Shown: in pieces, positions 35,684 through 39,572 of the stretch | Layout of the letters: the number at the start of each line of letters is the position of its first letter | Numbering within the stretch: the stretch's first letter is position 1 | From: Paramesorhizobium leguminum | GTDB taxonomy: Bacteria; Pseudomonadota; Alphaproteobacteria; Rhizobiales; Rhizobiaceae | Direction: 5' to 3' | Length of the DNA stretch: 64,000 nt | Assembly (NCBI RefSeq): GCF_003217235.1 | Contig: NZ_QJTF01000012.1 | Location: forward strand, 1-64,000 | Program-made: the position numbers and the translations under genes | Notes under the pieces: model-generated | The model's database searches: none | Seen by the model: the letters and a program-made list of their open reading frames with translations, nothing else | What the model was told of the DNA's origin: nothing

Positions 35684-36085
35684 TCAGAACGGTATATCGC
35701 TGTCATCGACGAGTTGGCCGTCCTCCTTTTCGGTCGGCTTCGCCCGGCTCAGGAAATCCACCGTCTCGGCGATGATCTCGGTGCTGTAGCGATCGACACC
35801 ATCGCGGTCAGTCCATTTGGTGTAGTGGATGCGGCCGCGGACCAGCACCTTCATTCCCTTCTCGCAATATTGCTGGACCGTCTTGCCCAGCCCGTTGAAG
35901 GCAGTGATGCGATGCCATTCGGTGTCCTGGACCCGGTAGCCGTTCTCGTCCCGGACAACTCTGCCCTCCGAGTAGCGTGGCCGCGAGGTGGCCAAGGTGA
36001 AGTGGGTGATGCTGGTGCCGCCTTGGGTGGCGCGGGTTTCGGGGGCCTGACCGATGTTGCCGGCGAGAATGGCGATGTTCTGCAT
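35684..36085 (-). CDS. ssb: Single-stranded DNA-binding protein of the island
   Basis: 133 residues from ATG at 36085 (MQNIAILAGNIGQAPETRAT), with GGAGCAACGGAG upstream. The OB-fold pattern (ITHFTLATSRPRYSEGR, TEWHRITAFNGLGKTVQQYC, EKGMKVLVRGRIHYTKWTDR) is that of bacterial SSB. It is shorter than chromosomal SSBs because the linker is nearly absent, yet keeps the acidic tip DDSDIPF that docks repair and replication partners. Such SSBs are common on conjugative plasmids and ICEs. A decayed inverted copy lies next to it. Confidence 0.92.
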   Translation of the reverse strand: MQNIAILAGNIGQAPETRATQGGTSITHFTLATSRPRYSEGRVVRDENGYRVQDTEWHRITAFNGLGKTVQQYCEKGMKVLVRGRIHYTKWTDRDGVDRYSTEIIAETVDFLSRAKPTEKEDGQLVDDSDIPF

Positions 36086-36326
36086 TTTAGTGTCTCCGTT
36101 GCTCCTCGGAGGGACCATTCCCTCCGACGAGACCCGGCCAAGGCCGTCGGGAGACACCTGCAACTGGCGGCCTGCCGCCAGCTCGCCCCCAAGCCCCGGG
36201 TGGAGCGGGCCAGCCGCGCTTGCGCGGCAACACGGCCGGGAGCCGCGGGGGTTGCGGGTGGAAACCGAACGGCATTAGGGGATCAGTCAGTCGGAGGGAT
36301 TGGTGCCTTTCGAGAGCATAACGGAG

Positions 36327-36708
36327 ATGCGCAACAGAACCATCGTCCTTGCCTTCCACAACGTGCGGTAGGCTCTGGCCGAACCATCATTCATAAGCGT
36401 GGCCGCAAGAGCCTCTTCATCGGTCATTCTGCAGTGACAGCCGAGAGGCAGGGTTGTCCGGGACGAGAACGACTATTGGAACCAAGGTATTTGGCACCCC
36501 CTCGCGCCGTGACCTCCACCAGCGGATTCCAACAATATTGTAAAAAGGGTATGCAGGTGACGGCCGTCGACTCTCACGGTATAGAAATGGATCGACCGCG
36601 ACGGTGTCGATCGCTACAATCACGCGGTCGTCCGACGGTCTGGCTCGGCGGGCAGAGGTGCTGGCCGAATATGACGGCCAGTTCGATGACAGCGATATAC
36701 CGTTTTGA
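36327..36708 (+). pseudogene. Decayed inverted copy of ssb
   Basis: Starting at ATG 36327 the plus strand follows ssb base by base with many changes: the frame stops after MRNRTIVLAFHNVR, then recognisable pieces appear in shifting frames (VVRDEN around 36450, QYCKKGMQV at 36531, and finally EYDGQFDDSDIPF with a TGA at 36706-36708). The end copies the SSB tail DSDIPF. Several frameshifts and stops rule out function. Confidence 0.75.
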
Positions 36709-36769
36709 GCGGGTTTCGAAGGCCCGGCGGCCAAAGCCGCAGGATAAGTGCAGCAAGTCGCGCAACGCC

Positions 36770-37365: not shown

Positions 37366-38346
37366 TCACTCCCAGTGTTTAAGATCCAGCTTTGTCGGAT
37401 TGGCAATCTTGAAGGTTCGAGTAATTCCATCGCCGGCATACAGAAGACGAAACCCGCCGAATTTTCCATCGCCACTCTTGGACCAGCTAGTGAGGAGAGA
37501 GCCGTAAATTCCAGAATTTGTTTCACCGGCCAACTTGTCGTCTAGCGATAGCACCCATTTGACTCGGTCAAAAGGATGATCATCGTCAAAAGAATACAGC
37601 GGAAGCCTGGCGAGTTTTATCGCTGTTTTCCGGAAAATCGAGGTATCGCGAGCTTCAACTATTCCAGGGTCGCAAGCTTTGATCCTTGTCAGGAATTCTG
37701 CCAGAGCCACCGACATTTCCCCAACATAAGTAAGCACATTCCAAAGAAATGATGTGACTGAAAGAACAGCCTTGCCGCCGCTGTGAAGAACCCGATGAGG
37801 TGCAACACCTCCATCTACCCACCCCTCGATGAAGAACCCCAATACGCGAAGGGTATGTCCGTCGTGGTGAAAATCAGTCTCGTATAGTCGCAAACGACCA
37901 TGCGCGTGTTTGATCGTATTGGCGAAGTTCGATATTTCATCCCGTAAAGGCTTTATCGCCTTCTTGAGCAATCTGACATCTGCCGACGAGGCGGATTCTC
38001 GGTCGGATTTATAGAATGTCTTGGCTATTTCTTCGAGATCATCGACGTGTTCCGCAGCCGCATACATAGTGAGTTCAAGGTAATCGATTATCTCGCCTTG
38101 AACGACATTGACGTTGTCCATGCTATCCAAGCTACTTGATACCTGCCAATAGGCTTCCAGCTTGTCAGCGCATTTAGCTACTTTGTCACAAATTCGGGCA
38201 ATAGAAAGATTGTAGATACCAAGCGGATGCCGACTGTCGCGCTGCTCATGATAAGACAGACCATTCTTCAACGAAGGAAGAATATTGAGAGCGGGCAACG
38301 GTGATCGGCCGCCATCCGGCGATATTTCTATTACTGGCTTTGACAT
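37366..38346 (-). CDS. Unknown 326-residue protein near the nuclease gene
   Basis: Starts MSKPVIEISPDGGRSPLPAL and ends TKLDLKHWE. The middle is helical (ICDKVAKCADKLEAYWQVSS; YLELTMYAAAEHVDDLEEIA) and includes ISNFANTIKHAHGRLRLYET, reminiscent of HEPN-like helical domains but without a clear R-x4-6-H motif. The C-terminal third has beta character. It is clearly more AT-rich than the island core, a sign of separate acquisition. It lies next to a putative defence nuclease, 245 bases away, so it may be a defence gene; no family was recognised. Confidence 0.6.
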   Translation of the reverse strand: MSKPVIEISPDGGRSPLPALNILPSLKNGLSYHEQRDSRHPLGIYNLSIARICDKVAKCADKLEAYWQVSSSLDSMDNVNVVQGEIIDYLELTMYAAAEHVDDLEEIAKTFYKSDRESASSADVRLLKKAIKPLRDEISNFANTIKHAHGRLRLYETDFHHDGHTLRVLGFFIEGWVDGGVAPHRVLHSGGKAVLSVTSFLWNVLTYVGEMSVALAEFLTRIKACDPGIVEARDTSIFRKTAIKLARLPLYSFDDDHPFDRVKWVLSLDDKLAGETNSGIYGSLLTSWSKSGDGKFGGFRLLYAGDGITRTFKIANPTKLDLKHWE

Positions 38347-38591: not shown

Positions 38592-39572
38592 CTAGAACGG
38601 TATGTCGTCCGTTGGCTCGAAGCGGACCTCGGGCACGGCACCGGCGGGCAGCGGGATGTTAGTCACGACAAAAAGATTGAGAATGTCCTCACGGTCCATG
38701 AAGAGAATTTGGGCTCGCTTGCTCTGATCCAGCTTGCCGCCGAGCCAATTCCGCGCCTGCTTGGTGATTTCGCCACCGGCGACGATGAAGGCGTGATCGA
38801 CGAGGACGCGCCGGTTAAGCTCTGGATCGAAGATCTCGTGGCCAAGCATCATCGAGACCTGGTTGTAGATTTCGGCGATGTTGGCGTTGCCGGCCTTTGT
38901 GGCGCCCGATGAATCGATCTTGCCCTTTTTCGCCTGGATGCCGAAGTAGATTACGTGCATCGTAGGCAACGTGAAGCGCATCCAGATGTCCTTGCCGTAC
39001 TCAAGCTGTTTGTCCGCGTGCCCGGCCGCCGTTATGCGATGGTAGCCGAGTTGCCGGAACATCGGCAGCAAGATCTCCTCGATCAACTCGTCCTCGCTGC
39101 ACTTATCGAGGTAGTCCGACAGTTGCGACCGCTTCTTTATCTCTTCGGGCGCGAACGGCCGGTGCGGGTTCGAGACCTCCGTGACCTTATTGGTCTTGAT
39201 GTGCCGGAACTGAAGCATCGCCCCTTCGTCGAAATAGGCTTCGTAACCCTCCTTCCGGAAAGGCGCATTTAGCACCTCGAGTGCCGATGACCGATCAGGG
39301 TCACCATCAACTGCCTCGGAACGATCCATGAGTGTCCTAAACAGGTGGACGAACCTGGGCGGCAAGGCATTCGGCTGGGCCGACGGCTCTGCCAACAATT
39401 CTGTGAGCCTGTCCGCCGCCCAGATCGCCCGAGTGGAGCCGTCGTGCCGAAATGGTAGACCGCAGTCCTCGAAAAACTCGCTGATGTAGAAGCTGGAGCG
39501 GTACGGAAAATGCTTCGCATCCCCCACGACACACTCTGCCAGCGCCCGCATGTTTTTGGTTTTAAACTGCAT
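38592..39572 (-). CDS. Putative anti-phage nuclease: AbiJ-N-like domain plus PD-(D/E)XK, SSB-like C-terminal tip
   Basis: 326 residues. Residues 28-60 (YISEFFEDCGLPFRHDGSTR followed by WAADRLTELL) resemble the N-terminal domains of AbiJ-type abortive-infection proteins. Residues 160-220 show a restriction-endonuclease-like core: ELIEEILLPMFRQLGY, then QLEYGKDIWMRF with D195, then YFGIQAKKGKI with Q213-A-K215. The last residues are EPTDDIPF, nearly the acidic tip of SSB. The protein would cut DNA when a trigger is sensed; the tip may bind SSB partners or compete with SSB. Domain calls are by pattern only. It has its own promoter region of 300 bases. Confidence 0.65.
   Translation of the reverse strand: MQFKTKNMRALAECVVGDAKHFPYRSSFYISEFFEDCGLPFRHDGSTRAIWAADRLTELLAEPSAQPNALPPRFVHLFRTLMDRSEAVDGDPDRSSALEVLNAPFRKEGYEAYFDEGAMLQFRHIKTNKVTEVSNPHRPFAPEEIKKRSQLSDYLDKCSEDELIEEILLPMFRQLGYHRITAAGHADKQLEYGKDIWMRFTLPTMHVIYFGIQAKKGKIDSSGATKAGNANIAEIYNQVSMMLGHEIFDPELNRRVLVDHAFIVAGGEITKQARNWLGGKLDQSKRAQILFMDREDILNLFVVTNIPLPAGAVPEVRFEPTDDIPF

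Follow-up and report, generated by a model that had tools for sequence, protein, structure and literature searches.

A widespread, mobile family of predicted nucleases with a C-terminal tail resembling the SSB tip

Why would a protein with a nuclease-like body end in the acidic tip of an SSB? The question is raised by an open reading frame in the window, the whole 64,000-nucleotide stretch of DNA analysed here (Paramesorhizobium leguminum, contig NZ_QJTF01000012.1, positions 1 to 64,000 of the forward strand). A sequence-only reading had pointed out that the product of this frame (38592-39572, minus strand) ends in TDDIPF, close to the DSDIPF end of the SSB encoded in the same island, and had proposed an AbiJ-like N-terminal region joined to a PD-(D/E)XK core. 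Both ends are as described: the C-terminus of the 326-aa frame is EVRFEPTDDIPF, with TDDIPF as its last residues, and the island SSB, 2.4 kb from the nuclease gene, is a true SSB by its family match. Within the nuclease protein there was no match to the SSB family (PF00436), and searches of Pfam, PADLOC, NCBIfam, PHROGs and the PDB sequences returned nothing for it (PADLOC 2.0 models: 0 families at E up to 1); the family-profile search of the PDB gave two matches, both irrelevant. The features of the locus are the following:

38592-39572, minus strand: gene of the SSB-tipped nuclease; 326 aa, ATG start, TAG stop
39183-39572, minus strand: N-terminal domain, residues about 1-130; helical with two strands in the AF2 model, possibly AbiJ_NTD3-like
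38664-39149, minus strand: PD-(D/E)XK-type nuclease core, residues 142-303, predicted from AF2 secondary-structure order, fold matches and sub-threshold Mrr_cat
39093-39095, minus strand: E160, possible catalytic acid; invariant in 88 sequences, opens the second helix of the core (160-175)
38988-38990, minus strand: D195, predicted catalytic aspartate; invariant in 88 sequences, directly before strand 196-201
38928-38936, minus strand: Q213-x-K215, predicted catalytic Q-x-K; neither residue varies in 88 sequences, and the pair closes strand 207-215
38613-38645, minus strand: variable, low-confidence linker, residues 310-320, from column conservation; mean pLDDT 59 (block 311-320)
38595-38612, minus strand: SSB-like acidic tip TDDIPF, residues 321-326, from homologue comparison
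35684-36163, minus strand: island SSB, C-terminus DDSDIPF (PF00436, E 3.9e-29), for comparison of the tip only

A conserved PLP motif (residues 307-309) precedes the variable linker. The window also holds an inverted, decayed second SSB copy (36447-36743, plus strand), about 70% identical to the island SSB region over 321 columns and with its C-terminus still DDSDIPF. The next gene downstream of the nuclease gene (37366-38346, minus strand; 326 aa) had no match in Pfam, PADLOC or PHROGs, and a chance-level one only in NCBIfam.

The AF2 model, built with 84 homologues (mean pLDDT 83.2, pTM 0.56), shows an N-terminal domain made up largely of helices, plus two strands, followed by a core with the PD-(D/E)XK order of elements and by a tail modelled as low-confidence coil (block pLDDT 59 and 55). 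E160, D195, Q213 and K215 are invariant in the 88 aligned homologues; of these, D195 and Q213-x-K215 had been named by the sequence-only reading. Foldseek matches in the PDB include BstEII (the best, E 2.6e-3), MspJI (second-ranked, probability 1.00), FokI, Cap4, EcoT38I and EndoMS; these matches are modest (TM about 0.2-0.27), and the same list holds, at similar scores, RPB5-type RNA polymerase subunits, Sec14-like proteins and other non-nucleases. Among viral structure models the best match is a restriction endonuclease (E 1.3e-4), with RPB5-type proteins also among the matches. The Pfam family Mrr_cat appeared below threshold in 5 of the 84 members, amid chance-like matches of which some scored better. 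Taken from alignment and model, a core of PD-(D/E)XK type, with a conserved D...(D/E/Q)-x-K in a predicted alpha-beta fold, is supported; the SSB-tipped nuclease would presumably cleave DNA, in the metal-dependent manner that belongs to the definition of the superfamily.

The AbiJ-like character of the N-terminal region fared less well. The window protein has no AbiJ_NTD3 match in Pfam; among the 84 members the family appeared below the cut-off in five (best E 0.035, in searches where chance-like families reach 0.0083), and N-terminal pieces gave it in two of five members (0.018 and 0.12) and in none of four further ones. Some weak support comes from a domain relative: the family profile A3 reaches, through the N-terminal domain, the Abi_C protein L202 (profile E 1.5e-9; Abi_C E 2.9e-22). 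In L202 (878-1702, plus strand) the N-terminal domain of the nuclease is joined to Abi_C, and in L239 (1504-2373, plus strand) and L240 (904-1806, minus strand), which came from the phylum search around the Bacteroidetes genome, it is joined to other C-terminal parts, respectively one with a weak nucleoside-deoxyribosyltransferase-like match and one without an assigned family. All three proteins lack the SSB tip. No HEPN/Abi_C or DUF2726 domain was found among the 84 members of the nuclease family. The N-terminal domain thus shows, judged from sequence, a pattern as for a swappable defence sensor; it appears distantly AbiJ-like at best, and is probably a sensor or adaptor.

The sequence-only reading had suggested checking whether homologues keep the tail. 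An xPF C-terminus was found in 91 of the 99 homologues with a readable end, a set that contains some identical rows and excludes a partial match (L005), two stop-broken frames (L082, L084), a fragment (L013) and a shortened copy (L092), the last two of which nonetheless carry the tip. The tree set comprises 94 rows, 89 of them different, and its motif rule dropped five rows that the count of 99 includes. Across the 88 aligned homologues, per-column conservation is 16-19% in the linker (315-319) and 91-92% at P325 and F326. The tip is written with diverse codons in 90 genes (all four for Pro, both for Phe and three for Ile, followed by all three stops), which argues for selection on the peptide and not on the DNA. 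The nuclease also has the traits of the SSB-tip class as defined in excerpts of PMC10018359, a disordered linker and an acidic C-terminus ending Pro-Phe. That the tail is a mimic of the SSB tip is well supported.

Eight of the 99 homologues lack the tip, the outcome that the sequence-only reading had named as speaking against it: Nodosilinea (ending DGLSF), Blastopirellula (DDDFLF), a Blastocatellia MAG, Rhodomicrobium, Shimia and three Acinetobacter. On the tree, presence and absence of the tip require at least six changes. The Acinetobacter copies (L077, L078 and L086; 7001-7936) stop where the linker would start, and the SSB in their genomes ends in DDDLPF; the tip is therefore dispensable in some lineages, and these copies offer a natural tail-less control. 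For seven of the eight tip-less homologues (all but L078, whose core is identical to that of L077), reading on downstream in all three frames revealed no tip hidden by a frameshift. Seven further homologues on viral contigs, outside the 99, comprise five with the tip and two without (L226, ending DDIQF, and L228, ending SDFSF).

Outside SSB the tip is rare. The pattern [DE][IV]PF-stop occurs at four places in the 3.73 Mb genome: the chromosomal SSB, the island SSB, the SSB remnant (at 36694-36708, within the decayed copy) and the nuclease gene; the reversed-pattern control gave 0 matches with TGA/TAA stops and 1 with TAG. The collected loci gave 7,224 frames running from stop to stop over 90 aa or more, and 175 of them carried a tip-like end, classed by phmmer as 93 nuclease, 80 SSB and 2 neither, in a sample biased by the many loci chosen for nuclease or SSB, some of them overlapping. 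Within the sequences examined, almost all such tips belong to SSB or to the nuclease. A DUF6511 protein (PF20121, E 2.1e-24; L011, 8805-9335, plus strand) ends in FDDEIPF and may represent a second protein family bearing an SSB-like tip. A protein without Pfam match (L067, 1908-2420, minus strand) ends in DDEMPF, in a locus that also has a tip-less nuclease copy.

We compared each nuclease tip with the tip of the best-scoring SSB (PF00436) of its own genome, second SSBs being left out. The 74 pairs correspond to 73 of the 80 genome loci plus the window's genome (left out were L033, four genomes without an SSB match and two broken genes); a PF end is present on 66 nucleases and 72 SSBs, and on both proteins in 65 pairs. 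Residue -3 agrees in 52 of these 65, against a mean of 38.1 (sd 2.2) over 20,000 shuffles, none of which reached 52, and residue -4 in 47 (shuffle mean 33.8, sd 3.4; p 0.0002), and a partial Mantel test allowing for nuclease-core distance gave r 0.214 (p 0.0014). These statistics do not fully remove common descent, related hosts sharing both SSB and nuclease, and much of the agreement carries little information since I stands at -3 on both proteins in 43 of the 65 pairs. The independent-pairs test, with only 5 pairs, counted 2.0 changes the same way and 0.1 opposite for E at -4, and 1.7 vs 1.0 for non-I at -3, so that significance is out of reach. Examples come from single lineages: both actinobacterial genomes compared (Thermoactinospora, Nocardioides) have DEPPF on nuclease and SSB; three Sphingomonas have DDVPF or EDVPF on the nuclease and DDVPF on the SSB; and in the eight paired, tailed Rhodobacterales (by record title) DEIPF ends eight nucleases, which lie on several separate tree branches, and seven SSBs. 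Five of the six actinobacterial copies read end in PPF and one, on a Corynebacterium plasmid, in LPF, with no PPF end in any non-actinobacterial homologue read; on the tree the actinobacterial copies lie in one starred clade of 17 together with alpha- and betaproteobacterial and acidobacterial copies ending IPF or LPF. Mismatches with the host SSB occur as well, for example in a Paracoccus MAG, Ramlibacter, Croceicoccus and a Nitrospira MAG (where the SSB end is not PF). By these sequence comparisons, the nuclease tip is more like the SSB tip of its own genome than in shuffled pairs.

The gene is widespread and mobile. Relatives were found on 46 of 72,556 plasmid records, 36 of them covering at least 80% of the query and 24 of the 46 records predicted conjugative, in hosts that include Escherichia, Klebsiella, Rhodococcus, Ensifer and Mycobacterium. 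None of 50,697 phage records held a relative; IMG/VR gave 8 and 15 viral-contig loci in overlapping sets, which may be proviruses or host DNA. In the host's family 4 of 297 sampled genomes matched, its own included, with one of the four weak and partial. Species genomes yielded 211 relatives out of 291 pattern stretches (several of them MAGs, some on short contigs), and the best 80 of the 211, used as loci here, come by record title from Proteobacteria, Actinomycetota, Acidobacteria, Cyanobacteria, Planctomycetes, Bacteroidetes, Verrucomicrobia, Nitrospira and the former Deltaproteobacteria. Phylum searches for further actinobacterial and Bacteroidota members (396 and 395 genomes) returned the centre genome as the sole strong full-length match, all others being weak or partial. 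In E. coli, megablast with the plasmid copy as query matched 191 of 5,426 genomes, 189 of them at 80-90% identity; the product of a plasmid homologue (L014) ends in GDDIPF and that of the one chromosomal copy examined in NDDIPF. Around this chromosomal copy (L213, 15001-15981, plus strand), the stretch bounded by rspB and ydfJ is prophage-like, with dicB close to the gene.

The neighbourhoods are rich in defence genes, as a comparison with control regions supports. Neighbour frames (the two nearest on each side, 90-950 aa; 145 taken evenly from 261, after removal of seven loci that were redundant or cut and of those with fewer than four neighbours) matched 120 PADLOC families at E 1e-10, against 7 for 145 of 157 control frames, for which 20 carrier genomes supplied one 9-kb region apiece; this contrast counts families and not proteins, each family being matched by at most two neighbours, and it is smaller at the protein level because one protein can match many models. 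Among the 25 PADLOC families listed are retron reverse transcriptases, single-gene retron types, an oligonucleotide cyclase, HamA of Hachiman, AriA and PD-T7-1. The commonest Pfam family of the 145 neighbours is phage integrase (4), with conjugation and fertility-inhibition at 2 each and housekeeping proteins such as aconitase (2) also present. On the plasmids (12 of the 46 records read), annotated neighbours include TIR, Abi, S-4TM and DUF4238 proteins, a methylase-helicase cluster and ABC-three-component genes, and some neighbourhoods are ordinary. There was no recurring partner: no family occurred in more than 4 of 86 loci (610 neighbour frames from simple ORF calling, with at most four taken per side), and the two largest neighbour families are common to nuclease loci L025 and L027-L029, four close relatives of one another. 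The nuclease therefore probably acts alone or with core host proteins. A two-gene system was considered and rejected, given this lack of a recurrent family and the products of both flanking genes, which had no match in the collected loci beyond their own genome. A stand-alone mobile nuclease, probably with an anti-phage role, fits these surroundings.

The reading that we prefer, with a probability of roughly 55% as a whole, is that of a stand-alone, mobile, probably anti-phage nuclease whose tail copies the host SSB tip in order to dock on the enzymes that bind this tip. It would consist of a possibly AbiJ-like N-terminal domain (likely a sensor), an Mrr/MspJI-like PD-(D/E)XK DNase core, a flexible linker and the SSB-tip copy. 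In E. coli the SSB tip, which follows a linker that varies, brings in 17 or more proteins, and P and F are the most conserved tip residues, with a changed P disrupting partner binding (PMC10018359, in excerpt). Since the nuclease tail shares the anatomy of the SSB tail and resembles the tip of the same host, the simplest reading is that it would fit the same pockets and so serve recruitment. In this best-supported mechanism, the tip would occupy the pocket with which host enzymes of replication, recombination and repair normally bind SSB, and perhaps that of phage recombinases relying on host SSB; the nuclease would thereby reach DNA rich in single strands, for example phage genomes undergoing replication or recombination. 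Permanent attachment to the replication forks of the host might be harmful if nothing gated the nuclease, and the N-terminal domain is perhaps this trigger or gate. We infer the DNA cleavage, the phage as target, the docking and the N-terminal trigger.

Several other explanations share part of this evidence. The tail might be bait, a decoy for phage proteins that need the host SSB tip (RecT/Redbeta-type annealing proteins, YbcN-like proteins), whose docking would bring the nuclease to recombination intermediates or activate it. This possibility, to which we give a low probability, explains why the tip must resemble the host SSB, and it agrees with published excerpts: RecT-type recognition concerns mainly the seven C-terminal residues of SSB and appears host-specific, a property taken to account for the host tropism of Redbeta (PMC10711431), and YbcN requires the SSB C-terminus (PMC4118853). 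However, its phage partner is hypothetical, sequence cannot separate it from docking on host enzymes, and lambda Orf does not depend on the C-terminus for binding SSB (PMC4118853, in excerpt), so that some phage SSB users would ignore the bait. An integrated form, in which the mobile gene copies the host SSB tip, adjusts the copy after moving host and baits phage replication and recombination proteins, seems to us similarly possible but unlikely; if true, phage escape would be hard without the loss of the phage's own access to SSB. A role outside defence, as a mobile-element nuclease for plasmid competition or for the replication intermediates of its own element, is rather doubtful: common plasmid carriage with more than half of the records predicted conjugative, the prophage-like setting of the E. 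coli chromosomal copy examined and integrases as the commonest neighbours fit it, but the recurrence of neighbour families in at most 4 of 86 loci speaks against a tie to one element, and anti-phage genes abound nearby.

The tip could instead bind SSB itself (its OB core) or SSB condensates and so place the nuclease on SSB-coated ssDNA, in keeping with the likeness of the two tips in one host and with the competition of SSB tips with DNA for the SSB DNA-binding domains (PMC10018359, in excerpt). The same source describes this domain as highly conserved in bacteria, which would leave little reason for I-to-P changes such as that in the actinobacterial DEPPF, and we regard SSB binding as improbable. 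Still less probable is an internal lock, with the tail held in a pocket of the nuclease and displaced by crowded host or phage SSB tips when ssDNA accumulates; it recalls Nhi, Hachiman, Eco8 and Septu, thought to sense phage SSB (PMC12904381, in excerpt), but the AF2 tail is low-confidence coil and tip-less homologues exist. Coincidence, for which the eight homologues without xPF could be quoted, is very hard to reconcile with the 91 that have it, the codon diversity, the agreement with host SSB and the SSB origin of three of the four genome pattern matches.

If docking of the nuclease on SSB-binding enzymes is true, the SSB hub would join the host modules exploited by immunity, the need for the tip to suit the host would give a reason for transfer barriers between phyla, and the tip would be a portable peptide tag directing enzymes to sites of ssDNA processing. 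How defence nucleases choose phage DNA is often unclear, and a candidate rule would be to dock where SSB-binding enzymes gather. The presence of the gene in E. coli makes the model testable there.

Our search of the open literature, a scope without most subscription papers and bioRxiv and with sources seen in excerpt, brought up no report of a nuclease that carries a mimic of the SSB tip. The closest known proteins resemble the SSB-tipped nuclease in parts. In 2013 AbiJ-NTD3 was described in fusion with a REase domain (DUF2726; PMC3710099), and AbiJ-NTD proteins likewise combine an N-terminal domain with a nucleic-acid-cutting effector in a defence context; a relative of the domain (L202) carries Abi_C. 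Unlike them, the nuclease has an effector that matches neither DUF2726 nor Abi_C (84 members), its AbiJ_NTD3 likeness is sub-threshold, and excerpts of PMC3710099 mention no SSB-like tail on these fusions. The modular plan is thus known in outline, and the SSB-like tail is new. The modification-dependent enzymes Mrr and MspJI share the PD-(D/E)XK core with D...Q-x-K (MspJI as second-ranked fold match, Mrr_cat sub-threshold), whereas the SSB-tipped nuclease has no recognised modification-reading domain, another N-terminal domain and the SSB-like tail. Nhi, Hachiman, Retron-Eco8 and Septu also tie nuclease defence to SSB biology, but they are thought to detect phage SSB (PMC12904381, in excerpt), whereas here the nuclease carries the SSB-like tip. 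Bacterial SSB itself has the same variable linker followed by an acidic tip ending PF, borne in our case by a nuclease-like body, and this tail suggests that a nuclease, probably an anti-phage one, may be targeted in a new way.
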